IMG/VR virus record: IMGVR_UViG_3300008261_000034
Location: 1-49,545 of that record
From: a virus
Length of the DNA: 49,545 nt
Strand: one strand, 5' to 3'
This document shows positions 16,798 through 44,669 of the stretch, piece by piece. A model generated the notes under the pieces. The model saw only the letters and a list, made by a program, of their open reading frames with translations. It had not been told where the DNA came from and did not search any database. The position numbers and the translations under genes are program-made. The number at the start of each line of letters is the position of its first letter. Position 1 is the stretch's first letter.

Positions 16798-16938
16798 TTA
16801 TTTTTTTAATTCTTTATTTATAAAATTGACCATGATGTCTATTTCATGGTCAGATAATTTATTTATTTCTTCTAAAGATAATAGCAAATGGTGTGAAAGT
16901 AACCACTTGTTATTATATTCTTTTTCTTTTTCTGTCAT
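16798..16938 (-). CDS. Small coupled gene, unknown (46 aa)
   Basis: A short frame with ATG at 16936-16938 and TAA at 16798-16800. Its ATG overlaps the TAA of the upstream 291-residue gene as TAATG, and the next gene begins 3 nt after its stop. It therefore fills exactly what would otherwise be a 143-bp hole in a packed operon. The product is highly charged and mostly helical: a Lys/Glu-rich start (MTEKEKEYNNKWLL), then LLLSLEEINKLSDHEIDIMV, then a basic end. The TAATG junction is the same as at two other junctions in this cluster (6669 and 17813), which supports translation. Function unknown; possibly a small assembly factor. An 8-bp inverted repeat (16828-16835 and 16844-16851) lies inside it. 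Confidence 0.6.
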   Translation of the reverse strand: MTEKEKEYNNKWLLSHHLLLSLEEINKLSDHEIDIMVNFINKELKK

Positions 16939-17813
16939 TATGTTTTAGTCACTTTAAAAAAACCATTACCATATCTTTCTAAACCTTTAATATTCCTTAT
17001 TTCTGATAATTTTAAATGTTTATCAAATACGTTATTTATTCCTCTTTCTATAAATACATCATTTTGAACTTCTGGTGGAAAAATTTTACCAAATAAATAT
17101 TCTTCTTTTATTATTGGACTTAAACCAATATTGGTTTCATTAAAACCTTCGCCAATATATCTAACTTTTGTTTTGACTAGGTTTGTTCTAACACCATCAA
17201 TTATTACAGCGGTTTTACCAGTATAATCTTCAAAATAAAGTCCAGTTGTTTGATTAATTGTACCGATTGTTGAATCGTCACTTGCATCAAATACATATCT
17301 TTTAGGGTTACCATCACTAATTAATCTATCAACACCTAAAATAGTATCGTTTTCATAATTTTCATAAAAACCCTTATTCATATCAAAACCAACTTTAAAA
17401 GGTATTGCTATATCATAAGTTCTTACATCTTCAATTCTAGATTCAGTCAGTCCAGTAATTACGCTTTTTGTGTAATTATAGTAGTTTGTTTTATCATATT
17501 GTGGATATCTTAACACTTTCCACAATTTCATAGGTGAGGTAACAGTGTTAAAAAATGGTGTTTGAGCACCTTCCATAAATGGAAAAGAAAAACTTAAACC
17601 GTTTAATTTATCAGTTAATACAGTATAATTTGGAATATTAGTACCGTATGGTACTAATTCATTATCAAAATCAGTCATCAACCCAATATCATCAATAGTT
17701 TGTGTTAATAAAATATTAATATAAAAGGTTGTAGCTGTAAGCGTACCCCAGTTTTTTTTAGTACTTCTATCAGTACTCCTTTCTAATATTATTTTTCTTT
17801 TAATTACTTCCAT
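16938..17813 (-). CDS. Tail/baseplate structural protein, unknown (291 aa)
   Basis: Not recognised. Opens MEVIKRKIILERSTDRSTKK, then a mixed alpha/beta sequence rich in Asn, Thr and Tyr without cysteines or membrane segments. Its ATG overlaps the stop codon of the preceding gene (TAATG at 17811-17815), and its own stop overlaps the ATG of the 46-residue gene in the same manner. Such tight coupling suggests that these products are made in fixed proportion, as expected for baseplate parts. Confidence 0.5.
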   Translation of the reverse strand: MEVIKRKIILERSTDRSTKKNWGTLTATTFYINILLTQTIDDIGLMTDFDNELVPYGTNIPNYTVLTDKLNGLSFSFPFMEGAQTPFFNTVTSPMKLWKVLRYPQYDKTNYYNYTKSVITGLTESRIEDVRTYDIAIPFKVGFDMNKGFYENYENDTILGVDRLISDGNPKRYVFDASDDSTIGTINQTTGLYFEDYTGKTAVIIDGVRTNLVKTKVRYIGEGFNETNIGLSPIIKEEYLFGKIFPPEVQNDVFIERGINNVFDKHLKLSEIRNIKGLERYGNGFFKVTKT

Positions 17814-18658
17814 TATGTTGCATTAATTTCATATAATGTTACTTTACATTGGTCATTGTTATAAACAACATTATTCGACCCAAATGTGTTACCTTGGTAA
17901 GTGTCATCAATAACATAAAAATAACCATTTGGTAATCTTTTTAATTCATATCTAGTATAAAGTTCACGAACTAATTTATCTATAGGTTGTGCAACATTTT
18001 TTACCATCATATTAACTAATTTACCAGTTTTAGCATTTCTAAAAATAGCTTTCATATATAAATACTTTGTCTCACCAATTGCTAATAAATTTTTATAATC
18101 ATAAAGATAATAACCCTCAGCAAAACCCATTGGATTGAAAAATGGACTATCGACAACAAACTTAATAGGAATTTGAGAAGCTGGTTTTGGCCATCCAGCT
18201 TTTGGTTGTCCAGCTGGTATCAAATCTATTGGCTTTAGTTCTGGGTATAATGTGATATACGAAACAAGATTTTGAGTTAAAGCATTATCACTATCATAAA
18301 AAGCTAAATATAAGTTTGTTTGGTTAAACGATTCTTTTCTAAATATTATATCATCATCAACAAACCCTACATCACCATAAAATCCAACATAAGCATTATT
18401 TTTTAACAAATAAACATCATATGTTATTGTTTTTATTTGTCTACCTTGTTTATCTAATGGTAAATACCTAGCTTTTTCATAATCAATAATTGGATTAATT
18501 GCTCGTTCAGTTTCTACATCAACAAAAACTTTTTCAATCAATTCAGCATAATCAACATTTTGTGTTGTGGTATTTAAAGGAATATTAATACTAATATCAG
18601 TAGTACCACTAGCAAGTGTTGTTGGATTTATTTTAAATTTATTAACAAACATCGTCAT
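17813..18658 (-). CDS. Tail/baseplate structural protein, unknown (281 aa)
   Basis: Not recognised. Starts MTMFVNKFKINPTTLASGT; a second possible ATG lies two codons in. It contains a Pro-rich turn (IPAGQPKAGWPKPASQIP, about residues 147-164) and a C-terminal segment IDKLVRELYTRYELKRLPNG. The start overlaps the last 17 bp of the 600-residue gene, and its stop overlaps the next ATG. It belongs to the compact cluster of tail proteins between the SprB-repeat protein and the gpI/gp7-like protein. Probably a virion protein. Confidence 0.5.
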   Translation of the reverse strand: MTMFVNKFKINPTTLASGTTDISINIPLNTTTQNVDYAELIEKVFVDVETERAINPIIDYEKARYLPLDKQGRQIKTITYDVYLLKNNAYVGFYGDVGFVDDDIIFRKESFNQTNLYLAFYDSDNALTQNLVSYITLYPELKPIDLIPAGQPKAGWPKPASQIPIKFVVDSPFFNPMGFAEGYYLYDYKNLLAIGETKYLYMKAIFRNAKTGKLVNMMVKNVAQPIDKLVRELYTRYELKRLPNGYFYVIDDTYQGNTFGSNNVVYNNDQCKVTLYEINAT

Positions 18659-20444
18659 CTTCTTTTACTTCGTATTTATCATTTATTCTATCACCAATTG
18701 GGTCTTCTGGAAATTTACTATAATATAACCCCCAAATACCAAATGGGTCTTGTCTTTTTAAATTAAAACAAATTATTTGATGTAAATAATGTGAATCATT
18801 TAAAAAGGGATAATCTAAAGCTTGTTCATCACTTTCATTAACACCTAAATCTAATAAATCTCTCCAAGCGTATGTTTCATCTGGTAATGTAATAGCATAA
18901 CTTGGAATATTATCTGTAAATCTATCACCAAATTCAATATATGTTGAAAATTCTCTTATTTTCATTTTGTAATGTGGTTTATAAAAATAACCCTCAAGTC
19001 TTGGTCCTAGTGTTATTGTTTTTGTTGGTGATGTGGCTGGTGGTGTAATACCAACTTTTGTTGTATAAGTTAATGATGGATTACTTAACCTATTAACTGT
19101 ATTAAAGCAGTGATTAACATCAGCTAATACAACTTCTAATAAAGTGGTTGTGTTATACTCAACTATATCACCATAAAATAAATCATCACTGATAGAAACA
19201 TTTGATTCTAATGGAGTGTGTGATGTAAATGGTGTACTAGTACCACCGTTATGTATTCTTTGTATACTTGGAATATCCCTCAAATATTGTAAGTTTGAAC
19301 TATTACTATTTTTTAATTTAGGGTCATATGGCGTTTCTATACCAGATTTAACTTGAGTAAATAAATTATTACTACTAGTTTTGATAAAAGTTAAATATAT
19401 TTCACTTAAAGGTCTACCTAAATTATCCACCAAATTTTTAACGTCAATATCCTCATTAAACACAACTTGAATATATGGGTCATTAAAAAAATTTTCACTA
19501 AAAGCTATATTAAATGTTTCATAATCATCAGTCTCAATTATTGGTTGAGTTCTGGTTTTTATTTTTTTAAAAATTCTAAAATAATATTCAGACTCAACAC
19601 CAGCTATCACTTTTTTAAATCTAGAATTAGAACCAATCGTTTTAGCTGCATTAAAAGGTGAATCAATAACAAAATAATATTCTTTATAATCAGAACTATC
19701 CAATCCAGTTCTAACAACAACGTATTCACCATCATAACCAACTGTACCAGTTATATTAACAATATCCCCAATATTTAAATTATGTTTACATGAAACACCA
19801 ATTGCTGTCATATTTCTGGTCGATACTATAGCTTGTTGAACTGAAGTTATTAGTAAACCACCTTTGACCATATTATGTGTTTTATTACTTGAAAATGGAT
19901 AAGTAATTGTTATTTCCCAATTTTTAACTGGAGTTCCATTTTGTGTTTTACCACCGAAAGGGTTTATATCTGAAATAAATGAAAATCTTTCTCTTTTAGG
20001 TTCAACATCATAAAAATTACATAAAGCCGCTTTTGTTTTATCTGGTTCATACGCACCAAACCAACCATCTTTTTCTTTTAAAAAATTACTAATAGTTACT
20101 GGAAATGTGTAATCAGTATCATCTAAATTATTGTTATCCCTAGGATAACTATTATCTAAAAAATCAAAAGTATTAAACCAAGACCATGTAAATTTATTAC
20201 TTAAATTATTATCAGTTAAATTAAATAATGGATTAGACATAGTACTATCTATTGTACCTATTATTCTATAAAAAGTACATCTATTACGTTCAACGTTAAA
20301 TCTATCAGAAGCATTAACTATTTTATTAATATCATTTAAAGGTAATAATTTTTGACTGTTTTCTACATTAATTTTTAAATAAGAATCAGTATTAACCTTT
20401 TCAGCTGATAAATTATCATTTAATATTTGTCTTGTTCTTTCCAT
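18642..20444 (-). CDS. Tail/baseplate structural protein, unknown (600 aa)
   Basis: Not recognised. It starts 6 nt after the SprB-repeat gene ends, so the two are co-transcribed. The sequence is mostly beta-rich with many aromatic residues. Around residues 235-260 it has a compact beta unit (NIGDIVNITGTVGYDGEYVV) of a kind common in phage tail proteins. The C-terminus is acidic (YEVKEDDDVC) and ends in a cysteine. No catalytic site, coiled coil or signal peptide is seen. Inferred to be a baseplate or fibre-attachment component from context only. Confidence 0.5.
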   Translation of the reverse strand: MERTRQILNDNLSAEKVNTDSYLKINVENSQKLLPLNDINKIVNASDRFNVERNRCTFYRIIGTIDSTMSNPLFNLTDNNLSNKFTWSWFNTFDFLDNSYPRDNNNLDDTDYTFPVTISNFLKEKDGWFGAYEPDKTKAALCNFYDVEPKRERFSFISDINPFGGKTQNGTPVKNWEITITYPFSSNKTHNMVKGGLLITSVQQAIVSTRNMTAIGVSCKHNLNIGDIVNITGTVGYDGEYVVVRTGLDSSDYKEYYFVIDSPFNAAKTIGSNSRFKKVIAGVESEYYFRIFKKIKTRTQPIIETDDYETFNIAFSENFFNDPYIQVVFNEDIDVKNLVDNLGRPLSEIYLTFIKTSSNNLFTQVKSGIETPYDPKLKNSNSSNLQYLRDIPSIQRIHNGGTSTPFTSHTPLESNVSISDDLFYGDIVEYNTTTLLEVVLADVNHCFNTVNRLSNPSLTYTTKVGITPPATSPTKTITLGPRLEGYFYKPHYKMKIREFSTYIEFGDRFTDNIPSYAITLPDETYAWRDLLDLGVNESDEQALDYPFLNDSHYLHQIICFNLKRQDPFGIWGLYYSKFPEDPIGDRINDKYEVKEDDDVC

Positions 20445-20450
20445 ATATCA

Positions 20451-23400
20451 TTAAGATGTTGTACTAGTTGGTGATACAAACGTACAACCAACACTATCCG
20501 TTATTGTTGGTGATTGAACCACCGACCTAGCCGATACAACTGGTAACACAACACTATAGTTATTTGGGTTACCGATACCACCACTTATATTCAATGTTTT
20601 AGTTGCACCACCAGAACTATTCACACCATAACTCCATGAAGCTGTTAATGCTTGTGTTGGTAATGTAATAGTTGGTAAAGTACCACTAGCTGTACATCCT
20701 TTATTATCAGTTATTGTATATGTTATAACAGCAGAACCAGTTGGACTTGGCATATTACCAACAATTTCTTGTTGATGGGTGTTCAATTCAACTGTTTGTT
20801 CAGTACCACCATTTACTTTAAATTTAAAAGTGTAAGGTTTTCTTAAAGTATAACCAGGGTTTATTTCCCAATGAGAGACATTAACTTTAAATGTTACACT
20901 ATTAGGGTTACACTGTTTAGAATTAGATGTTATTCCATTTGTATTTACACTTAACCATGAATTAGGTAATCTAATTATACCTTCATTAAATGTAAGTAAA
21001 CCACTTTCACATTTTTCATCATTTGATTTAAATTTAAAATCAAATGAGGTAAGACTTGGGAATGATGCTTTAGGTAGGCTCAATTCCATATCAGTACTAG
21101 GACTTACATAATTAGTTGTAATAAAAGGAACCGCACTAGCCCAAGCACCACCATTATATCTATATTCTAATTTTATGTTAGAATAACCACTATTTGTTGC
21201 AAGTATTCTAATTTTATAGTTATCTGGGTCACATTGTTTACTAATACCACTACCAGCACTTAAAATTAAAGGTTGTGGGTTATCAACACCAATTGTAAAA
21301 TTCTGAGTTGCAGTTGTACCATAACTATCAACAACTGATATTGTGTAATTACCATCTTTAACATTTTGCTGAGAAGCTACATTAAAGAAATCACCACTTG
21401 TTGATGTAGTTGATATCGTGTATGGTGATTTACCACCAGTTATAGTATAAGCAAACGAACCATTAGTACCTAAATAACAACTTACATTAGATAATGATGT
21501 TTGGGTAATTACAATAGCTGTAGGTCCATCTAATTTTAAGTTTTTAATGATGAGATTTGAAGTTCCGTCACTAATTTTTAATTTATAACCATAACTTGGT
21601 GGAGTAGCCCCATCTGATAATATATGACCAGCTAAACCATCAATTTTGAACGGTACTTGCGTTAAATTACCACTTTCTACAACTGTTACCCCATCACTTT
21701 TGTAAAGTGTGTATGTATATGTACCACTTCCACCACCAACAGAATCAATTGTTATTTCACCATCAACTGATTGTGGGTTAGTTATCATTTTTGATACACT
21801 AGCATTTCCGTATAAAGGTGCTGGTCCATCAACTGCTACTGTAATAGTAGCGTTATTACCATTTGCATCAATAACTTCTATTTCATAAGTACCAACTGGT
21901 AAATTTAAAGTAGTATTACTTGGTTGACCAGAACCATCTAAAGCGATGGTACCATTACCATTTGTTGGTCCACTATATGTATATGTAAAAGGAGATGTAC
22001 CACCAACTACACTAAACACAATACTACCTTGTCCACTTGAACTAGTCGCAGCGTTAGATGTAAATAATATGTTAAATTCTTTTTCTTTTTCTGGAATACA
22101 TCTAGCAAAAAACTTCTGATTTAATTTTTCAACGGCACCTCTACCTGGTTTTAAACCAAAATAAAAGAAATAAGAGTTATTAATAGCTTGACCAAAACTA
22201 GTATCTGAATTAGTTTGATATCCTCTAAAATCTAAATAATTTTGACCATTATGGGTTGTGTCAGATGCAAAAGGATAAACCCATGTATTCGTTATATTAA
22301 AATCAGTCGAAAAAGGCATCGAAGAATAAGGGAAAGGTGTTGTTAATTGCATAGGATAATCTTTATTTAAATAATAAAAAACATCTCTAAAAAATTTACC
22401 ACCACCATCATCAATATCAGATATACCTATAGTACTATCTGGTGAAATAGTCGCAGTACCAGCACCATCTCTAAGTTCATCAATATCAACACCAAATTCA
22501 CATAAATGTCTTATATTTAAAACTTGCCTATAATTAGACCTTAAACCAGTACAATCAATATCAAAAAATAAACCTAGAATAGCTGGTGTTAATGTAACCA
22601 TACCAGTTGTTTCAACACCATCAGCACTATTATCATTCACAAATTCAACAGTATCTGGTGGCATTTTATATGTTGTTGGTATTAAATAATTTTGTAACTT
22701 TGGAATACCTTGCCAATCGCAATCAAATACAGAACCTAAACAAACTAAATCAGTAGCAAACAGTCTATGTTTGGTATCATGTTTTGTTGATGCGTAATAC
22801 AAATCTTCACCATATCTTATACCATTTATGATTGTCACAACTTTTTTAGCAACACCTTCTCTAACTAGAGTTTCATGTGTTTTATTTTGACATTTTTCAG
22901 AGTTACTTAAAACGTTGTTGTCTGATGAATAACATGTGTCTAATATGTAATTATTCCTACAGTTATTATCCCCAACATTATTGTTGTTACCGTCAACACC
23001 CCCTAGACTGAAAAAATCTGGGTTACAATCATATTCACAAAATAACTCTCTACCTCTCCTTTTATATTTGTATTTAAGTAAAAACCCAAATAAACTACCA
23101 TTTAACCAATCACCATAAAAATCAAATTGGAACATGTTTAACGCTTTTGCTATAACGAAAGCAACACAGTTATCGTAACCAGCTGCGCTATAACCATCTT
23201 CTGGAATACCAGTGTTTGGTGCGCCTGGGTAAAAATCAATATTACCATATTCCAATACAGCTTCATAATGTCCACCTCTCATACCAGAATGACAACTATC
23301 TGGATTACCACAAGTAGGTTTTTTACAACCAGGAGCAAAAGTATTCTCTTCACCCTCTTCAAAAGGACACTTTAAAACAACACATTTAACATAACTAGGT

Positions 23401-25013
23401 AGTCCTATAATCCAATTACACGTGAAAGAAAGAAATTTTAACAATCTATAACAACCCCCTAACCATGAAGGTAATTCAAATGTACATTCTTGGGATTTTT
23501 GACATAGATTTGACATTAAACCATTCCAAAAACCTATTAATTTTCTAAAAATCCAAATAAAGAAATTAACAATAGGGAATATGGCAACATTTAAAACCCA
23601 AATAATAAAAGTGATAATTTTAATAATAATACATATAATTAAAAATATTGGGTTAAATTCAGTATTAACTCTATTAAATGGTGGTGGTGTTTTATTTCCA
23701 TCACTATCAACATCTTTTAAACCAGTAAAAGCTCTAGTCCCTTCTCTACCATTAATTTGAAATCTAGGAATAAAGTTTTTTACGGTATAAATTTTATTCC
23801 AATAAACATCTCTAAAACTAGTATCTTTTGTTTTTTCATCAAAAGTATAATCTATTTCAGATTTTGTTCTAGGATTGTTAGGTACTAAAAATTTGGCTCT
23901 TGTTCTTAATCTACCTTCACCACCAGTATTATTCATACCTATTTTAAACCTAAGTCTAGCTCGTGTTGGTATACCCTTGTTTGTGTCTTCTGTTGGGACT
24001 AAATTACCAAATTCATCAGTTATTTTGTAATCTAAATTCATCGGTATCTGATAAGCCCATACACCATCTTCATCAATTAAATCACCATCTCTTATGTCAA
24101 AAGGTTCTATAGTATCATCTAATGTTTTTCTAAGCATTTCGATTTTACCCTCACCAGAAATTAAATTAGCAACATTACCTAGTTTCTTTCTAGGTCTACA
24201 TCTTTTGTTGACACTGTTTTTATCGTCATCACCAAAAATACTACCCATAAAAATAGCTGAAGGTGTTATTGTAAAATTCATATCAACATCAGCTCTACTA
24301 ATACCGACTTCACATGTTTCTGAATCACCCCAGAAAGGTCTAACAAAAACAGCTGTACTACTACTTTTAACTTGTATTAATCTATCTAATAATTTACCAG
24401 CTTTATATTTTGTAGTACTTTCAAATAAATCAACTGGTGCACCTTCACTTATTGAATCGTAAGGTCTTTGAGAATAAATACCAATGTCTGAAATATCAGC
24501 ATCCACATGAATAGTATATGAACCTAATGGGACACCAAAAAACATAAAGTCACCAGCTTCATTAGTAGTAGTTGTAAATTTATAATATTTACAATAAACA
24601 TATTCTAATTCTGGATTATCTAAAATTTCTCTTTTATTAGGAAAAGTACCTATAGGTGTAAAACATTCATTGTTTGTTTCACTAGTTTTTGGTAATAGAT
24701 TATATCTAATACCTTCAGAATCCTTATCAGTTATAATTTCATATGGGTATAAACCTCTAATAATTGAATTTTCTTTATCTTCATCATCTAATGGTATAAA
24801 AATACTAACTCTAGCGTTTGGTAATCCAACGCCACCATTAAAGAAAACTCTACCTACAACCGCACCATAATCAGAACAAAAATTTCTATATGCATCTTCA
24901 TCACTTATTTTTAACGATAAGACTTCCAGAAAGTCAAATTCTTGGTCTATTTTTACTTTAACATATGTATCATTACCGTTAGGTTGAGTTCTTATCCTAA
25001 TTGTTTCTGACAT
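20451..25013 (-). CDS. Giant tail protein with hydrophobic belt and SprB-like repeats (1520 aa)
   Basis: Domains in order. Residues about 50-175 resemble a carboxypeptidase-regulatory/Ig-like fold (VVGRVFFNGGVGLPNARVSI ... EAGDFMFFGVPLGSYTIHV). Residues 453-499 are strongly hydrophobic (NPIFLIICIIIKIITFIIWV and the run after it), long enough for two membrane passes. Residues about 500-770 hold some seventeen cysteines. From about 990, SprB-like repeats appear: GSIVFSVVGGTSPFTYTYSG ... LPVGTYEIEVIDANGN, then a divergent copy (1082-1165) and GSFAYTITGGKSPYTI ... DGNYTISVVDSYGTTAT (1186-1240). Weaker copies follow to the end. SprB repeats are known from Bacteroidota gliding adhesins. The gene lies directly after a small membrane protein gene. 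I infer a tail protein that meets the host surface; the belt could act in membrane contact or DNA entry. Confidence 0.6.
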   Translation of the reverse strand: MSETIRIRTQPNGNDTYVKVKIDQEFDFLEVLSLKISDEDAYRNFCSDYGAVVGRVFFNGGVGLPNARVSIFIPLDDEDKENSIIRGLYPYEIITDKDSEGIRYNLLPKTSETNNECFTPIGTFPNKREILDNPELEYVYCKYYKFTTTTNEAGDFMFFGVPLGSYTIHVDADISDIGIYSQRPYDSISEGAPVDLFESTTKYKAGKLLDRLIQVKSSSTAVFVRPFWGDSETCEVGISRADVDMNFTITPSAIFMGSIFGDDDKNSVNKRCRPRKKLGNVANLISGEGKIEMLRKTLDDTIEPFDIRDGDLIDEDGVWAYQIPMNLDYKITDEFGNLVPTEDTNKGIPTRARLRFKIGMNNTGGEGRLRTRAKFLVPNNPRTKSEIDYTFDEKTKDTSFRDVYWNKIYTVKNFIPRFQINGREGTRAFTGLKDVDSDGNKTPPPFNRVNTEFNPIFLIICIIIKIITFIIWVLNVAIFPIVNFFIWIFRKLIGFWNGLMSNLCQKSQECTFELPSWLGGCYRLLKFLSFTCNWIIGLPSYVKCVVLKCPFEEGEENTFAPGCKKPTCGNPDSCHSGMRGGHYEAVLEYGNIDFYPGAPNTGIPEDGYSAAGYDNCVAFVIAKALNMFQFDFYGDWLNGSLFGFLLKYKYKRRGRELFCEYDCNPDFFSLGGVDGNNNNVGDNNCRNNYILDTCYSSDNNVLSNSEKCQNKTHETLVREGVAKKVVTIINGIRYGEDLYYASTKHDTKHRLFATDLVCLGSVFDCDWQGIPKLQNYLIPTTYKMPPDTVEFVNDNSADGVETTGMVTLTPAILGLFFDIDCTGLRSNYRQVLNIRHLCEFGVDIDELRDGAGTATISPDSTIGISDIDDGGGKFFRDVFYYLNKDYPMQLTTPFPYSSMPFSTDFNITNTWVYPFASDTTHNGQNYLDFRGYQTNSDTSFGQAINNSYFFYFGLKPGRGAVEKLNQKFFARCIPEKEKEFNILFTSNAATSSSGQGSIVFSVVGGTSPFTYTYSGPTNGNGTIALDGSGQPSNTTLNLPVGTYEIEVIDANGNNATITVAVDGPAPLYGNASVSKMITNPQSVDGEITIDSVGGGSGTYTYTLYKSDGVTVVESGNLTQVPFKIDGLAGHILSDGATPPSYGYKLKISDGTSNLIIKNLKLDGPTAIVITQTSLSNVSCYLGTNGSFAYTITGGKSPYTISTTSTSGDFFNVASQQNVKDGNYTISVVDSYGTTATQNFTIGVDNPQPLILSAGSGISKQCDPDNYKIRILATNSGYSNIKLEYRYNGGAWASAVPFITTNYVSPSTDMELSLPKASFPSLTSFDFKFKSNDEKCESGLLTFNEGIIRLPNSWLSVNTNGITSNSKQCNPNSVTFKVNVSHWEINPGYTLRKPYTFKFKVNGGTEQTVELNTHQQEIVGNMPSPTGSAVITYTITDNKGCTASGTLPTITLPTQALTASWSYGVNSSGGATKTLNISGGIGNPNNYSVVLPVVSARSVVQSPTITDSVGCTFVSPTSTTS

Positions 25014-25436: not shown

Positions 25437-27251
25437 TTATTGCTTCGCTCTAACTAATATATCTTTATTAGGGTATTTTATTTCATACATTGTTGTTGCT
25501 TCACCAAATATAGTCATATCTTCCAAATCTATTTGTCTTGATGGTACATCAATATAAAATTGTGAAATTTCATTTAAACTATATTGACCACCACCAACTT
25601 TATTAAACATTCTTAATTGGATGACGTTCAGTACTCCACCTATATTATTTAATGTTTCAATAAGTGGTGAAATGTATATGTTTTCACCCATTTCATATTT
25701 GTTTATATCAAAAAACTTTCTAACTTCTGTAATCGCTTTTGATATTACTTGAGATTGTGGAACATTTTTATCAATAAATAAATCTAGTTCAACTGATATA
25801 TTAACAATTCTACCATCTCTAACATTAACATAATCATTTAACATTCTATAATCAGCTAAATAATTAGATATATTATTTTTTAAAGTAGATGTTGATTCAT
25901 TTGATAGATGACCAGCAGAATCTAAACCTAATATATAAACACTAATTTTATTTAGTTCTTCAAACACACCACATCTAAAAGGTGCACCAAATTTACCAGG
26001 CATTTGTGCGATTCTAGTTTGATAGTCTTTTATTGTAACAGCTCTATTTTGTGATGCAAAATTATATCTTATCATATTTCTTATTTCCTCAACACTTGGT
26101 TCGCTTTTACCACCAATAGCTGGAAATAAATTATTAACTTTTAAAGAACCCCTTACCAATTGATTAATTTGTCTATCTGGTCCGTTAACACTCATGTTAA
26201 CTATACCAAAATTTTTTATAACATTTGGCCCTATATTTGAATCAGCACCACCACCAACTCTATATTTTATAAACATAGTTGTATTAGGTGTTGGTATTTC
26301 ACCTAGTGACATGTTATTAATGAAATCACCTATTTGATTAACCAAAGCTGGATTGCTATCGAATTCACATAAGCTAGAAATATCTTGACTACCAGAACCA
26401 AAAGTTATTTTTGTAAAACCTAAATCTGTATATTCTCTAATAAATTTTTTGTTAACACTAACCCATTTTCCTGGAGTAACTGTAGATGAGTCAGTTGGTC
26501 TAGTAGTATCTACTATAAAAACTTTATCTTCAGCTAAAGCATCAACTTCATACCATCTATTATCTGGATTAGCAAATTCTTCTAAACTAGGTGTCACTGG
26601 AATATTTGTACCATCTATAGTTATTATTGAATCTACTGAGATGACATCATTATCTGGTAATATTATATCTAAAAAAGGCCTAGAATCAACGGTAGCTATT
26701 ACTTTTTTTAATATTTTAGAATAACCATTCGTAACTATTTCTCTTTTAGTTAAAGTATAATTTTTTAATGAACCATTTGCATTAAAATTAGGGATTATAA
26801 TCCTATTAGGTATTCCATTAACGTTAAATGGTGATGAAAAATCAACATCATCATTTAATTCAAATATTTTACCAGCACCAGAAACTTGTGAACCAGATTT
26901 CAACATTGGAGCGTATGATACATCAAAACTATCACCAAATGGTGGTAACGTTATACTTATATCAACTATTGTTGCACTAGCTCTTCTCCCTGGTATTTTT
27001 AACCCAAACGTTCTAGCTAAAGATAAGACTGACTTTTTTTCTTGAGCATAATCGATTTGTGTTTCAGCAAACATCCTATCTGTATTATATGATAACATAT
27101 CACCTACAGCAGCATTTAATTCTAATAACATCATACCTACTGACGCATCATTAAAATCATTAAAAATATCTGGATAATATTGTTTAACATAATTTATTAA
27201 ATCGGTTCTTATGTCAACAAAGTTTCTTGATGAATAATTTACATTTGGCAT
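25437..27251 (-). CDS. Baseplate wedge protein, gp6/J-like
   Basis: Residues 1-100 show the typical beginning of T4 gp6 and P2 gpJ-like wedge proteins: FVDIRTDLINYVKQYYPDIF, then FNDASVGMMLLELNAAVGDM, then LSYNTDRMFAETQ. Later stretches (VEEIRNMIRYNFASQNRAVT, then KDYQTRIAQMPG) match the conserved Baseplate_J core. In T4, gp6 dimers form the inner iris ring that joins the wedges. At 604 residues it is close to the T4 protein (660). It starts 3 nt after the gp25-like gene, the pairing seen in many contractile tails (gp25 with gp6). Assignment is firm. Confidence 0.9.
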   Translation of the reverse strand: MPNVNYSSRNFVDIRTDLINYVKQYYPDIFNDFNDASVGMMLLELNAAVGDMLSYNTDRMFAETQIDYAQEKKSVLSLARTFGLKIPGRRASATIVDISITLPPFGDSFDVSYAPMLKSGSQVSGAGKIFELNDDVDFSSPFNVNGIPNRIIIPNFNANGSLKNYTLTKREIVTNGYSKILKKVIATVDSRPFLDIILPDNDVISVDSIITIDGTNIPVTPSLEEFANPDNRWYEVDALAEDKVFIVDTTRPTDSSTVTPGKWVSVNKKFIREYTDLGFTKITFGSGSQDISSLCEFDSNPALVNQIGDFINNMSLGEIPTPNTTMFIKYRVGGGADSNIGPNVIKNFGIVNMSVNGPDRQINQLVRGSLKVNNLFPAIGGKSEPSVEEIRNMIRYNFASQNRAVTIKDYQTRIAQMPGKFGAPFRCGVFEELNKISVYILGLDSAGHLSNESTSTLKNNISNYLADYRMLNDYVNVRDGRIVNISVELDLFIDKNVPQSQVISKAITEVRKFFDINKYEMGENIYISPLIETLNNIGGVLNVIQLRMFNKVGGGQYSLNEISQFYIDVPSRQIDLEDMTIFGEATTMYEIKYPNKDILVRAKQ

Positions 27252-27254
27252 ATT

Positions 27255-27641
27255 TTATATTTTTATTATTACCATGTCTGATGATTCAAAAACACCATCA
27301 GTTATTGTATAACTTAAAGAAACAACAGCAGCATATTCTGACTCTGGTGATTCTTCAATTAGTATTTCATTTAATTTTAAATTTGGTAAAAATCTTTTTA
27401 CGACTGTTCTTATTTCCTCTTTTATACCTTCTTGTGTCATTGCATCATTAGGTTCAAAAATAAAACGTAATAAATCAGTACCAAAATCTGGATTATATAA
27501 TCTTTGACCCCTTCTTGTTAATATTAAATGTAGCAAATCAGCTTTAATCGCTTGATTGGCTTGTTCAGTTAAATCTAAAAAAAACCCTTTAGGACTATCT
27601 TTAAAGGGATAATTTATATTTATGTATTTACCGTTTGCCAT
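27255..27641 (-). CDS. Baseplate wedge protein, gp25-like
   Basis: A 128-residue member of the gp25/GPW family. It shows the conserved core NQAIKADLLHLILTRRGQRL followed by YNPDFGTDLLRFIFEPND, where R-RG-R--NP-FG is the family hallmark. The C-terminal strand pair ends in VVSLSYTITD. In T4, gp25 connects the wedge to the hub and the first sheath ring. The length equals that of T4 gp25 (about 130). It is the first gene after the strong terminator that follows nrdA, so a promoter should lie in the 110-bp gap. I see TATTATATTTATCTAATAAATA there but no TAnnTTTG box. Confidence 0.9.
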   Translation of the reverse strand: MANGKYININYPFKDSPKGFFLDLTEQANQAIKADLLHLILTRRGQRLYNPDFGTDLLRFIFEPNDAMTQEGIKEEIRTVVKRFLPNLKLNEILIEESPESEYAAVVSLSYTITDGVFESSDMVIIKI

Positions 27642-38261: not shown

Positions 38262-38292
38262 CAAATTTACAACATTTATTTTAAATTACCAA
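38262..38292 (-). promoter_or_regulatory. Bacteroidota-type promoter for the small-gene unit
   Basis: On the minus strand TTG (38290-38292), 20 nt, then TAAATTTG (38262-38269), then CAAT and ATG. It overlaps the last codons of the hub gene. The start codon comes 4 nt after the -7 box, where transcription itself should begin. Confidence 0.7.
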
Positions 38293-41200
38293 GCTAATTC
38301 ATCACCAGATGCTTCAAATCTTCTAAAAAAGTCATTAGCATACTGACTTCTGGTTGCTTGATAACTACTTTTGTATGTATCGTATCCTTTATTACATTTA
38401 TGACAAATCTCAACTAATCTTGCAAATTCATATGCCGAACTATTAGAATATTTTTTAGTCCCATAAGAATCATCTAAGTTTAACCATTCTTTATATGTAC
38501 TCATAGTTGTTATATATTCTAGTTGTTTATCTACAGTTTCACCAATTGTTTGTAATACAACTTTTGCGTTTGTACTACCACCTTTTGGTGTGTACAAACC
38601 ATTCCATTGTATTAAACCAACTGATGGATAACCATTTAAATCTCGTTTATTTGTTGCGTCTGGCTGCCACGTACCACCAGTTTCATGATGTATATTACCC
38701 ATAATACCAGCAACTTGTGTTTTTGTTAACCCCCTAGCTTTAAAGAAATTTTTAGTTTTTAATTGTGCCGATTTAATCGATGTTTTAGTTGCTGTTGTAC
38801 TAGCATTTGAATTAATATCATTAGCTCTATCACTAACAGATGTTGTTTTATATTCAATACCAGTATAGACAGATTCTTTACCATCTTTACCTTTAGGGTT
38901 TTTAACAAATGATTTTATTTTAGATTCTTTTATATCAGATAAAGGATTATCACTAGCTTTATTATTACCTAAAGCTGGTATTGGTTGATTTCTAAGCATG
39001 TATATAGCCGATGTACCATGGTATTCCCAATGCCAATGTTCTTCACCATTTATTGTTCCAACACCTCTACCATCATTAGCCCAATATGGTTGAACAAAAC
39101 CATATTCATATGAATGTTGATATAACCATTTTAAAGCTGGGTTTTTTTCAAAACTAAACATGTCTGGCGAACTACCAGTTTTAAAATTATTTCTAAAGAT
39201 GTTACCTTTTTTATCAAAAAATTGAAGGTCTACGGCTAAACCAAATGCATGCATTGAATTAGAACCATTTGTTCTAAATAAACATGTTATATATGCATAT
39301 ATATCATCACCATTCTCTTTAGTAATAACTTTAAAACCATTACTACTCATCCATTTAGTCCAATCAGTTAACATTTTAGTTAATGGTTCAACCGCTTCAC
39401 AAATCATTTGTTTGTTAGGGTTTAACTGGAATGAAATGCCTGGAATTTTTTCAACTTTACATGGTTTAATATTACCAGAATTGATATTACTACCAGAACA
39501 ACCATTATCAATTAATGTTTGTAATATAGGTGGTGATGATTTAGGTATCGCACCAGAAGCATTTATTGTACCGCTTGAATCCCCAGTGGCTTCTAACGTA
39601 TTTATCAATTCCATATAAACATCATACGAATCAATTAATCTAGTTTCTGGATATCTAATTCTAACACCAGTAAAATTAGTTGACATATTATGTGGTCTAA
39701 TTGAATGAGAAACTTTAGTTATCATATACGCACCATGGAACATAGGTATATTATCCAATTGAAAATACATCATAGGTTGAATCATGGCATTACCCATCAT
39801 TTCAACTTTCGCTGTATAACTTCTAACCGCATATACGTTATAAATATTTTGACCAACAATAGCTCTATTATGTTCAGTACCTTTTTGTGAAAGTTCATCT
39901 TGAATCTGTAATGATTCATCAGTTTCTGTAAATTCGCTTTGGTCTAATTGTATATCTTTAAAAATATTTTGATTTTGTTGACTATATTTCACAACAAAAG
40001 CACTAACTGGTTCTTCATATTCTGCATATTGTCCAGATATAAAATCTTTAGGACTTTCAACCGAAATTGAACTACCATTACACCTTAAATCGAATCCATC
40101 ATTAGGGTATTTTGAACTATGACCATCAGCAAATCTTTCTGGTGCACCATAATCTAGATGTTTTGAAGTTTGACCTACATAAACACAAACAAATGATGGA
40201 CCACATGCACCTTGTGGAATTTCATCTTGTATATAACTAAATGGTTTAAATATTGATGTCATCACTTTTTCATCATTAAAATTGATGAAATTAGGTAATG
40301 GTTGGAAATTAAAGTTATTACTACTTAATGTTTTAGAAATTAAATCATAGGAACTACTATTGGCGTTATGTAATAATATTTCATTTATAGGTAATGGATT
40401 AATATATAATTGGTCACCTATATCTCTAAAACTTCTACTAACAAACCTAAAACTATCAATCATCCTAATTTTAGGTTCACCTTGGTTATTACTATATTTT
40501 TTAGCTAATTTTTCATCAACCAAACTTCTACCACCACATTGGAAGATTAAATTATCAATATCTTTAGCACCACCTAACCATTTATCATAAATGTTTTTAC
40601 ATGTTCTATATAATTGTAATTTAATAGCATCTGTATTTGTTGTACCAAAAATTTCTAAATCAATTTTTTGATTTTTCTTTTCTTCATCTAATGAATCTTT
40701 TTTATTTTTAAGTGCTTCGATAACAGCTTCAAAATAAGAATTAAAAACGTCAGATTTTACCTTTATAGGTGTTCTCTTTTTATTGATTTTTGTATCATCA
40801 TTTTTAGTCCAAACTTTATAAGTTGAGTTAAATATTAATGATTCTTCACATAACGCTTGTAATAAAGTTATAACAGCTGGTGAACCATCTTTTAATTCTA
40901 AAAATAAATGAAAATCATTTGCATCAGCTGTAAATGGGTCTCCAAGAGTACCAAATACATTTTCTGGTTGAACAGCTGTAATTGTTTCATAATTAGTTAA
41001 TATTACATCTTTTTTAACTTTTAAATCAGCTGAATTTTGACTAAATAAAAAAGACCTTTTAAATTCAGATGCGCCTCTCCAAAGATAAATACCAGTTAAT
41101 GGAACGAAATATTTTTCTAATCTTATATTTTCTATGAATGTTGTAAGACCATTATTATTAACTTCAAAAATTTCTAATTTATCAGCTATTGTTCTCCAAC

Positions 41201-44200
41201 TAATACCAGAGTCAGTACCATTAACAAAATGAAAAAACATCTTAATAAACTCATATTTAATTTGCATTGGTAATCTGTTAATTAAATCTTCGTCTTCAAT
41301 ATCATCATATGATATAGTGTCACCTTCCCAAAAACTATCTAAAACTTTTGGAAAATATTCATCTTTATTTGGTAAACCAGAAGAACCAAACTTAGCTAAA
41401 CTTTCAAATGTAATGGGGTCATTGGTACCAGAACCACCACCAATTTGCATACCGTTATCATCTTTTATAGGTTTTTCACTTAAATTTCTCCAGAACATAC
41501 CACCTATATAAGCACACCAAAGTCTAGGTGCATGAACAATACCAGAACTATTTCTAAATAAATTTTTTATTTCCGCTTGACCTAATGGGTTAGATGTATC
41601 CCATTTAAAATTAAAAGGTAACGTTTGTAAAAATAAATAAGCTTTTGCCGCTTGAGAATTTTGATTATAATATAAATCACTACCGAATAAACTAAAACTA
41701 TGTGGAGAGTATGGTTCAAGTTCTTTAGTGCTAAACCAACCAGGAAGAGATGTATCAGAATCGTATGTTAATTCAACGTATGGATATGATATGGTATCCG
41801 CTTGACCAGATAAATATTGTTTAAATAAAGCTCTGTTTATTCCTAAATTTTTATGATAAAAAAGATTACTAGTAAACATATCACCATTTTCATGCTCGTA
41901 ACCACTAGTTCTATCATTTTCATCTAATAAAGATATAGTTTCTTTAGATATTGAATAATCACCGCCATTGTGATAATTTGCTGGTTTACCATCTGCAAGT
42001 GCTGATGCTTTTCTGGTTAAAGCTAAACCTTTTTGTCCATCTTTATAAAAAACATACATTAAAGGTAACCCTTCTAAACTTGAATCACCCCAATCCATTT
42101 TTTCAAATTCTTGAACCCCAAGTCCACCTCCAAATACGTTATAACCAGCAGATTTATCAGTTACCTCTTGTTTTAATTTATCTAAACTAAAAACAGATTC
42201 ATATGTTAATTGTGTCCCAGTTTCTGGTAACGCTTTTTTTAATTCAACATCACCAATATTAAAAATTCTAACATATATTCCACCATCATCTGGTTTTTCA
42301 ACCCCACTTACATTACCATCAGAATCTTCAATCATATTAGAACTATAATTAGTAAAAAATATACTACCTTCTAAATCTCTTTTTTCTATTAATGTTTTAT
42401 TAACATTATACCAATAAGCTTTAACACTAGAAGTTGAATTGAAACCATCTGATATAGGTAATAATTTTTGTTCTAAATAATCGTCTTTATATTTAAACAT
42501 GTAAACATATTCAACTTCATTGTTTTCTTCAATAACAACGTTCCTAGAAGCTGTATCATCATTTATTCTACCAGATACATTTTTAAAAGTATCAACCGTT
42601 ACATCTAACATTGCAGATTTTAATTTATCGTCTTTAACGCCATTTATCATTGCTTCAACCTCTATTTGAGCTAAAGCTAAAATTTCTTCATTAGACATAA
42701 AATCTGGGTTATATGAATAACCTAAAAGAGTCATTGCTCTAATAAGCATTATACGAACAATATCCTCTTGATTAAGAATTTCATATCTTTCATATGGTTG
42801 TTTATCTATAAAAATTTCAGAATCAAATGGATTTATTGAAAACCATGTTGTTTCTTCTTTTTCTTCTTGGTCGATAGTTTCTTGTTGGTCTTTATATGAT
42901 TGTCTAAATGCTTCTAACAATTCTTCAATAAAAACAATTTCGTCTACATTTTCTGGGTTCTCTAATACACCATCAGCACCTAAATATTTTTCAACATAAA
43001 CTGATGAATTTTGATTACCGTTATCACCTTCAACTGTTTCATAATATCCATCAGTATTACTAGAATTATCTTCTTTTTCTCTGTAATCTGGCCATGGAAA
43101 AAATTCATTTTTTTCTCTATATAGATTATGTATATCACTAGTGTTTAAATCACCACCAGTAAATTTTTTAGCCAATTCAGTTGTCCTATCAGCATTAGCT
43201 ATGGCCGATGTTGAAACCGTAAAAATAGTTTCAGCAAATACTTCAATAGCAGCAGTAAAACATTCAATTATTGGTCTTACCGTTGGTTGAAAACCTAATT
43301 CTTCTCTAACAGTATCAGCAAAATCTCTAGCCAAAGTTTTTTTCTCAACATCTTGTTTTGAATTTAATGTGACAATTAGTTCTGAAAGTTTTTGGTTTAA
43401 TAAACTCATGTCAAAAACATCTAAAGATTCATCATCACCTAAACCTTTATTATTTTTTTCAATATGTGTTAATATACTTTGTTTTATTGTGGTAATTTCA
43501 GTTTCAGATGGGTTACCTAATTTAGCTGATAAATTAGTATTGTCATCAGATTTTAGTTCTGATTTAGTTATACCCTTATATAGTTTACCACCATTAGTGT
43601 TTGTTGCTATTTGTATGTTAATAAAATCATTTTCATCTAATAAAAAAGATTCTGGTGTTGTTTCATTGTATGAAGCAATATCAGTTTTAACATTAGATAT
43701 ATACGATTCTTGTAAATATGTTTTATTTTCAGCACTAAAATCTTCAACATGTTTAAATACTATATAATCAAAATTCTTTTTATCTTGATTTAAATCGAAT
43801 CTTATACCTAATTTATTAATTCTTGTTTTAAGTGATTCTAATTTACCAACAGCATCTTTTAATAAATCTATTTGTACAGCAGCTGGGTTATCAGATGATT
43901 CTCTTTTTAATTTTGTATTTATTTCAGATATTTGTTTTGATAAACCATTTAAAGTTAAAACGTTTCTACCAGTATCTTCCAAATATTTATCAAAACGTTG
44001 TTTTCCAATTGTTGTATAAGGTATTGCTTTTAAATAACCTATTAACATATCAGACATTAAAGCAAATGTATAACCAACAAAAGTAGCTGTTATCTCAAAA
44101 TTACCATTTTGTGCATTAAATTTTGAATTGAATTTATATAGATGTAGACAATACTTAACTGGTAATCCATAAAATCCTTTTATTTCCAATTCAAACATAG

Positions 44201-44669
44201 GATAAGGTAATTGGAAGAAAGTAGTATATTTATTTCCCTTATTATTTAAAATATTTTCTTCATTTTGGAAAATTGAACTTCCCCTAACATCAACAAAGTT
44301 AATAGTTATCATTGGTGTCATGGATGCGTTAAACTCTATATCTATACTAGTTATACCTAGTGTTTCATCGTTGATTACATCTTTATCAAAAACTGTCGTT
44401 AAATCAGTAAATTTACTGGTTAAAACTTTTCTTCCACCTAATTCACTACCTTCAATAAAATTAACGTCAATTTGTGCGATATTTTCTGAAATACCACCAG
44501 TATCAACACCAGTTAATAAAGTCCTTTCTTTTCTAAAACTTTTTAATATTACGGATATATTTAAATCCTCTAAAGGTACAAAGATATTATCTTTTGAACC
44601 AAACCCACTAAAGTTGTTAGGGTCAACTAACTTTACTCTACCAGAATTACAACTTGTATTACTCGCCAT
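38286..44669 (-). CDS. Giant baseplate hub protein with M15 peptidase and tail lysozyme domains (2127 aa)
   Basis: The first part (about 1-230) is a beta-rich hub-like region (LPYPMFELEIKGFYGLPVKY). At 1634-1680 comes a segment typical of baseplate hubs (LDNIPMFHGAYMITKVSHSI). Residues about 1757-1890 form an M15/VanY-type peptidase: H1807 and D1814 (SMHAFGLAVDLQF), E1877 and H1880 (GEEHWHWEYHG) give zinc ligands and catalytic base. Residues 1964-2127 form a Phage_lysozyme2-like domain (VAGIMGNIHHETGG ... SVGLIQW), with the likely catalytic E1996. So one hub carries a peptide-cutting and a glycan-cutting domain, combining the roles of T4 gp27 and gp5. Its start overlaps the stop of the gp53-like gene by 11 bp. 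The two enzyme domains are firm; the hub role is inferred. Confidence 0.75.
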   Translation of the reverse strand: MASNTSCNSGRVKLVDPNNFSGFGSKDNIFVPLEDLNISVILKSFRKERTLLTGVDTGGISENIAQIDVNFIEGSELGGRKVLTSKFTDLTTVFDKDVINDETLGITSIDIEFNASMTPMITINFVDVRGSSIFQNEENILNNKGNKYTTFFQLPYPMFELEIKGFYGLPVKYCLHLYKFNSKFNAQNGNFEITATFVGYTFALMSDMLIGYLKAIPYTTIGKQRFDKYLEDTGRNVLTLNGLSKQISEINTKLKRESSDNPAAVQIDLLKDAVGKLESLKTRINKLGIRFDLNQDKKNFDYIVFKHVEDFSAENKTYLQESYISNVKTDIASYNETTPESFLLDENDFINIQIATNTNGGKLYKGITKSELKSDDNTNLSAKLGNPSETEITTIKQSILTHIEKNNKGLGDDESLDVFDMSLLNQKLSELIVTLNSKQDVEKKTLARDFADTVREELGFQPTVRPIIECFTAAIEVFAETIFTVSTSAIANADRTTELAKKFTGGDLNTSDIHNLYREKNEFFPWPDYREKEDNSSNTDGYYETVEGDNGNQNSSVYVEKYLGADGVLENPENVDEIVFIEELLEAFRQSYKDQQETIDQEEKEETTWFSINPFDSEIFIDKQPYERYEILNQEDIVRIMLIRAMTLLGYSYNPDFMSNEEILALAQIEVEAMINGVKDDKLKSAMLDVTVDTFKNVSGRINDDTASRNVVIEENNEVEYVYMFKYKDDYLEQKLLPISDGFNSTSSVKAYWYNVNKTLIEKRDLEGSIFFTNYSSNMIEDSDGNVSGVEKPDDGGIYVRIFNIGDVELKKALPETGTQLTYESVFSLDKLKQEVTDKSAGYNVFGGGLGVQEFEKMDWGDSSLEGLPLMYVFYKDGQKGLALTRKASALADGKPANYHNGGDYSISKETISLLDENDRTSGYEHENGDMFTSNLFYHKNLGINRALFKQYLSGQADTISYPYVELTYDSDTSLPGWFSTKELEPYSPHSFSLFGSDLYYNQNSQAAKAYLFLQTLPFNFKWDTSNPLGQAEIKNLFRNSSGIVHAPRLWCAYIGGMFWRNLSEKPIKDDNGMQIGGGSGTNDPITFESLAKFGSSGLPNKDEYFPKVLDSFWEGDTISYDDIEDEDLINRLPMQIKYEFIKMFFHFVNGTDSGISWRTIADKLEIFEVNNNGLTTFIENIRLEKYFVPLTGIYLWRGASEFKRSFLFSQNSADLKVKKDVILTNYETITAVQPENVFGTLGDPFTADANDFHLFLELKDGSPAVITLLQALCEESLIFNSTYKVWTKNDDTKINKKRTPIKVKSDVFNSYFEAVIEALKNKKDSLDEEKKNQKIDLEIFGTTNTDAIKLQLYRTCKNIYDKWLGGAKDIDNLIFQCGGRSLVDEKLAKKYSNNQGEPKIRMIDSFRFVSRSFRDIGDQLYINPLPINEILLHNANSSSYDLISKTLSSNNFNFQPLPNFINFNDEKVMTSIFKPFSYIQDEIPQGACGPSFVCVYVGQTSKHLDYGAPERFADGHSSKYPNDGFDLRCNGSSISVESPKDFISGQYAEYEEPVSAFVVKYSQQNQNIFKDIQLDQSEFTETDESLQIQDELSQKGTEHNRAIVGQNIYNVYAVRSYTAKVEMMGNAMIQPMMYFQLDNIPMFHGAYMITKVSHSIRPHNMSTNFTGVRIRYPETRLIDSYDVYMELINTLEATGDSSGTINASGAIPKSSPPILQTLIDNGCSGSNINSGNIKPCKVEKIPGISFQLNPNKQMICEAVEPLTKMLTDWTKWMSSNGFKVITKENGDDIYAYITCLFRTNGSNSMHAFGLAVDLQFFDKKGNIFRNNFKTGSSPDMFSFEKNPALKWLYQHSYEYGFVQPYWANDGRGVGTINGEEHWHWEYHGTSAIYMLRNQPIPALGNNKASDNPLSDIKESKIKSFVKNPKGKDGKESVYTGIEYKTTSVSDRANDINSNASTTATKTSIKSAQLKTKNFFKARGLTKTQVAGIMGNIHHETGGTWQPDATNKRDLNGYPSVGLIQWNGLYTPKGGSTNAKVVLQTIGETVDKQLEYITTMSTYKEWLNLDDSYGTKKYSNSSAYEFARLVEICHKCNKGYDTYKSSYQATRSQYANDFFRRFEASGDELAW

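Follow-up and report, generated by a model that had tools for sequence, protein, structure and literature searches.

SprB-like units in the C-terminal arm of a baseplate-cluster protein from a phage of probable Bacteroidota

The window, which is the whole stretch of DNA analysed here (49,545 nucleotides, record IMGVR_UViG_3300008261_000034), encodes a 1520-residue protein whose C-terminal third is probably a modular contact and receptor-binding arm on the baseplate of a T4-like, freshwater-type jumbo phage of Bacteroidota. The N-terminal core would be built into, or onto, the contractile-tail baseplate beside gp6, and the C-terminal third, with about six Ig-like domains of which at least two are of the SprB-repeat type, would project from that baseplate. 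The arm would act as a stalk on a host surface structure with its tip setting specificity, and its SprB-type units would be an old phage lineage of the Ig-like family, inherited with the core. The sequences establish its domain composition, SprB-type homology, conserved gene order, dispensability, divergence from base to tip and joint inheritance with the core; the presence of the protein in the virion, the projection from the baseplate and the binding of a host surface structure are inferred. What emerges is a widespread and so far uncharacterised protein of the baseplate cluster, whose core is constant and whose Ig/SprB-type tip can be exchanged. Such an arm likely determines host range in Bacteroidota jumbo phages and offers a handle on their little-known receptors.

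The baseplate-cluster protein and its core

The 49.5-kb virus record carries genes for gp6-like and gp25-like baseplate proteins, a ribonucleotide reductase, a replicative helicase, a UvsX-like recombinase and an SSB (Table 1). The order gp25 - gp6 - family gene - 600-aa gene is kept among relatives, with the gp6 homologue directly upstream of the family gene in 120 of 122. A location inside the baseplate wedge gene cluster was taken as the mark of a contractile-tail baseplate component, and the family gene is encoded inside that cluster. A T4-type portal was present in six of the seven related jumbo records tested. With the core as query at least 592 relatives were found in IMG/VR, and 141 with the full-length query. 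No match was obtained by tblastn of the full 1520-aa protein against the phage collection. Gp109 of Immutovirus, which occupies the matching place after gp6, is not homologous to the core, nor does it contain significant SprB units.

Table 1. Coordinates of the family protein, its parts and its neighbours in the window.
Feature	Position	Strand	Evidence
Baseplate-cluster protein, 1520 aa, conserved core and C-terminal Ig-like arm	20451..25013	-	ORF and relatives
Core, residues 1-980	22074..25013	-	42-76% identity to 46 relatives
Strongly hydrophobic segment, residues 456-500, within predicted long helix 455-508	23514..23648	-	Kyte-Doolittle, model
SprB-like unit 1, residues 985-1068	21810..22061	-	37.3 bits in protein, 45.7 isolated; hhalign 99.4%
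Diverged unit 2, residues 1069-1167	21513..21809	-	hhalign 98.5%, 14 bits; Pfam SprB best stretch 1083-1106
SprB-like unit 3, residues 1170-1250	21264..21506	-	46.0 bits in protein, 53.3 isolated; hhalign 99.5%
Distal Ig-like domains, residues 1251-1520, most variable, lowest conservation	20454..21263	-	AF2 model, alignment
gp6 / baseplate J-like wedge protein	25437..27251	-	phrog_219 4e-22
gp25-like baseplate wedge protein	27255..27641	-	PF04965 3.7e-13, phrog_261
Conserved neighbour downstream, 600 aa, no assigned function	18642..20444	-	3' of family protein in 99/102 relatives

The core was modelled with a mean pLDDT of 82.7 and contains a carboxypeptidase-regulatory-like beta-sandwich near residues 140-175. 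It gave no significant fold match to solved structures in the PDB, and neither a sequence nor a fold match to known or solved baseplate proteins such as T4 gp7, which counts against the contact-arm reading. In a viral library, A0A8S5LA66 (Myoviridae sp. ctPuP5) matched the core structurally from end to end (32% identity, TM 0.66); that protein is itself uncharacterised, so the match assigns no function to the core.

The hydrophobic segment of the core reaches a Kyte-Doolittle peak of 3.13 in the window protein, and peaks of 2.26-3.63 were found at residues 456-500 in all 47 aligned relatives; the segment was found in 145 of 151 sequences of a wider set. A membrane-like stretch of ~45 residues is unusual in a virion protein. 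It is possibly membrane-active during injection, and its conservation leaves room for a membrane role, a further point against the contact-arm reading.

Elsewhere in the window (38286-44669, -), a 2127-aa tape-measure-like protein has two enzyme domains close to its C-terminus, one a VanY-type peptidase and the other a phage tail lysozyme. In IMGVR_UViG_3300020048_001020 (L063, L137; 995-5668, +) the family gene is split into three ORFs, by frameshifts or assembly errors.

The arm and its SprB-type units

AF2 predicted the 546-residue C-terminal arm as a chain of about six Ig-like domains with a mean pLDDT of 90. Among the best PDB matches of the arm in Foldseek, the highest TM-score (0.36/0.38) was that of 9flw, which is fragment 6 of GhpA, a grappling-hook adhesin from Aureispira (Bacteroidota). 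Matches to complement, fibronectin and similar proteins were set aside as reflecting generic Ig chains.

The preliminary description had placed SprB repeats from about residue 990 to the end of the protein. The three peptides that it quoted all occur in the translation of 20451-25013 (-), and its span of 20451-22080 agrees with residues ~978-1520. The repeats themselves stood in part: three consecutive units lie in tandem (985-1068, 1069-1167 and 1170-1250), units 1 and 3 being clear and unit 2 diverged, and residues 1251-1520 are Ig-like with a single weak SprB match (1397-1454, 13.7 bits). Scanned with Pfam at full length, the protein gave 16.9 bits for PF13573 (SprB), in two stretches. When the C-terminal 546 residues were scanned, SprB was the best family (E 1.6e-5), at a score of 24.9 bits that falls below the curated cut-off of 28.

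A further profile was built from 120 full-length SprB units of Bacteroidota-phylum genomes and three bacterial bins and contains no phage sequence. The window arm scored 82.4 bits against this bacterial profile (E 8e-25, for 1000 sequences), with 37 bits for unit 1 and 46 bits for unit 3. Among 47 aligned full-length sequences, 46 have an arm, and all 46 matched at E<1e-3; no N-terminal core (0 of 47) and no shuffled or reversed arm (0 of 966) did so. Units 1 and 3 align over 77 and 80 of 86 columns, with homology spanning the whole ~80-residue SprB unit and taking in the closing P-x-P-L linker of the bacterial unit.

The window units resemble the SprB repeat (PF13573) in being ~80-residue Ig-like domains with a ..DGxI..GG..PY/FTY..GTY.I.V.D.xG core, in their P-x-P-L linker and in their head-to-tail order. 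They differ in their cysteines: both members of the pair are present in 99 of the 120 bacterial units and in none of the phage domains D1, D2 and D3, and unit 3 of the window protein retains the first SprB cysteine (C1179) without its partner. Judged by sequence, the units are SprB-like, that is, of the SprB type but diverged and lacking the cysteine pair. The SprB adhesins also have long arrays, compared with about three units here, and a signal peptide and T9SS domain, both absent from the window protein, which is encoded by a phage baseplate-cluster gene. By sequence and hydropathy, its N-terminus (MSETIRIRTQPNGND) is polar and not signal-peptide-like, and its strongest hydrophobic stretch lies at 456. 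Neither PF13585 nor PF18962, the T9SS sorting domains sought, matched the window protein; PF18962 gave weak matches in only 5 of the 46 relatives.

It is distinctly unlikely that these are ordinary phage domains of the Ig-like Hoc or whisker type with a coincidental SprB label, and a purely generic Ig identity was mostly rejected on the Pfam family matches, the Lw1 and Hoc controls and the profile comparison. In favour of the generic reading, the whiskers (Wac) of E. coli phage Lw1 reached 83.5 bits on the bacterial SprB profile and a T5-like Hoc reached 43.5 bits, and the whole-protein score on that profile does not separate the window protein from the Lw1 whiskers. Lw1 Wac (L128:1-2268:+) even exceeds the PF13573 cut-off (46.5 bits), so this model is not restricted to gliding Bacteroidota. 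Of the 46 relatives, 18 match phrog_2973, 'Hoc-like head decoration'.

Preference among families points the other way. PF13573 matched 43 of the 46 armed relatives (best E 2.2e-18, several exceeding the curated cut-off) and other Pfam families at most 7 each, whereas Ig_2, Ig_3 and I-set matched none of the 46 at E<=0.01; generic Ig folds alone, the outcome against which the SprB assignment had been set, are not what these family matches show. In Lw1 and the T5-like Hoc the preference is reversed, Ig_3 or Ig_2 outscoring SprB, and their matches span only columns ~19-77 of the 80 of the SprB profile, in contrast to the full span of units 1 and 3. Those two units also keep the glycine of the DG motif (G18), which is found in 91-96% of the window-family units and 96% of the bacterial units and is absent from the four phage Ig domains compared. 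On the SprB profile the isolated window units reached 46 and 53 bits, as against 15 and 16 bits when the profile was made from just four phage-Ig sequences. The Hoc, pb10 and fibritin proteins of enterobacterial phages are likewise Ig-like domains on phage particles and are thought to be weak surface binders, but the models that fit their domains best are Ig_2, Ig_3 or I-set, and the match to the SprB unit is only partial.

Inheritance, loss and divergence of the arm

SprB-like units were found in 80 of 94 distinct complete relatives. Of the 14 without them, about five end at or close to the end of the core (L069, L157, L182, L193 and L085), while about nine carry a different C-terminus, 146-1408 aa long, three of these being from rumen-type or mixed genome bins. 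Between pairs with 80-90% identity in the core, identity drops towards the tip, from 64% in D1 to 55% in D2, 49% in D3 and 49% in D4-6. The nearest unit was the same-position unit of another phage for 46 of 46 D1, 45 of 46 D2 and 43 of 46 D3 units, and distances between arms track those between cores (r 0.58-0.81, 0 of 500 permutations). Because nearest neighbours are the same unit, arm and core distances are correlated, and losses, swaps and tip divergence occur, the sequences indicate that the arm is old in the phage family: it descends together with the core, has at times been lost or exchanged, and evolves quickly at the tip.

Capture from a host adhesin gene, which the preliminary description had raised as one origin of the repeats, is barely credible as a recent event. 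The best bacterial unit is 39% identical to unit 3, which would speak for it; it is contradicted by the same-position neighbours in other phages, by co-inheritance with the core and by the loss of the cysteine pair in all phage units.

The main rival to a host-contacting arm is a purely structural role as baseplate spacer or glue, in which the Ig-like domains bind other virion proteins and make no host contact; we consider it unlikely. Ig-like domains are often structural add-ons in phage tails, and both the conservation of the first unit and the tracking of core distances by arm distances would suit such a part. A spacer is harder to reconcile with the fastest divergence lying at the tip and with an arm absent or replaced in 14 of 94 relatives, synteny being intact in the armless L069, although loss in some relatives fits a dispensable spacer as well as a receptor-binding part. 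An arm that is lost, replaced and diversified tipwards while the core stays fixed is as expected of a part touching a changing host surface, and a contact and receptor-binding arm remains the reading that we prefer.

SprB-like units also occur in L077:14851-16008 and L071:14594-15670 (+), homologues of a 291-aa tail-cluster gene of the window (16938-17813), where they replace the middle and C-terminal portions. Within the tail cluster, the repeat moves from gene to gene.

Host, gliding machinery and other phage adhesins

The preliminary description took the repeats to point to Bacteroidota, and this is probably the host group. Shine-Dalgarno-like sites preceded none of 29 genes, where shuffling of this 29% GC sequence predicts only 0.5, which speaks against a host that uses such sites and is no proof of Bacteroidota. 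The nearest gp6 relatives among cultured phages were those of Flavobacterium phage immuto and, slightly weaker, of a Microcystis phage. A relative of the window phage (L204:5080-6903:-, in the record of L159, of the same phage family) encodes a 607-aa protein with a signal-peptide-like N-terminus and a CHU_C type IX secretion domain (62.9 bits), which by its sequence appears to be a T9SS cargo among phage genes. Six binned contigs had mixed labels, three of them Bacteroidota, and bins were not trusted alone for host assignment. Membership of the bS21 freshwater phage clade (PMC9723584) was rejected, as bS21 was found in none of 14 related records.

Attachment to the gliding machinery or mimicry of the adhesin had also been proposed. 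In such a case the arm would dock on or mimic host SprB-type gliding adhesins, and the phage would exploit the gliding/T9SS machinery or travel on it. In Flavobacterium and Cellulophaga, mutants defective in gliding resist phages, and the gliding proteins SprB and RemA have been proposed as receptors (PMC7345892; PMC13288928); the SprB-type homology of the units and the T9SS substrate encoded by the relative phage agree with such a role. Docking or mimicry is nevertheless very unlikely: Ig units with comparable scores are found in phages of E. coli, which does not glide, the phage units lack the SprB cysteine pair, and PF13573 was found in only 20 of 99 sampled Bacteroidota-phylum genomes. Since Lw1 and the T5-like Hoc match the bacterial SprB profile, resemblance alone does not imply gliding, and neither does the Pfam label SprB on a phage protein. 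The specific version in which the baseplate arm associates with moving SprB-family adhesins of the host, so that the phage rides the T9SS conveyor to the injection site, is highly improbable.

The open literature searched contained no publication describing SprB repeats in the tail proteins of phages. Three UniProt phage entries, likened to the window protein by their entry names, already carry such terms: A0A6J5LD72 and A0A6J5LDA4 are named 'SprB repeat' and A0A6J5NJX2 'Gliding motility-associated, C-terminal domain'. Ig-like domains have been described as modular adhesins on gut Bacteroidota phages (PMC13370021). Those adhesins (BACON, PKD) likewise are interchangeable Ig-like domains near structural genes of Bacteroidota phages, but are of different domain types, and PF13573 is not named there. 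Phage-encoded T9SS cargo has been reported once, as unique, in Cryophage (PMC7468147).

Two huge-phage records, which may be chimeric assemblies, encode complete adhesins of the host style, and it is these that qualify as candidates for host-type adhesins carried by phages, in preference to the window protein. The 642-kb LR756502.1 encodes a 1675-aa protein (L126:5295-10319:+) with a signal-peptide-like N-terminus, PKD, a CHU_C type IX sorting domain and about 14 canonical SprB units (848 bits; 310.9 bits on PF13573), and so has the make-up of a complete T9SS substrate of the gliding-adhesin type; this record also has a T4-type portal and two further CHU_C proteins. In the 635-kb LR745206.1, a 732-aa protein (L130:7032-9227:+) has a signal-peptide-like N-terminus, one SprB unit, a PKD-like domain and a CHU_C sorting domain, and the record holds four CHU_C matches in all together with a T4-type portal.
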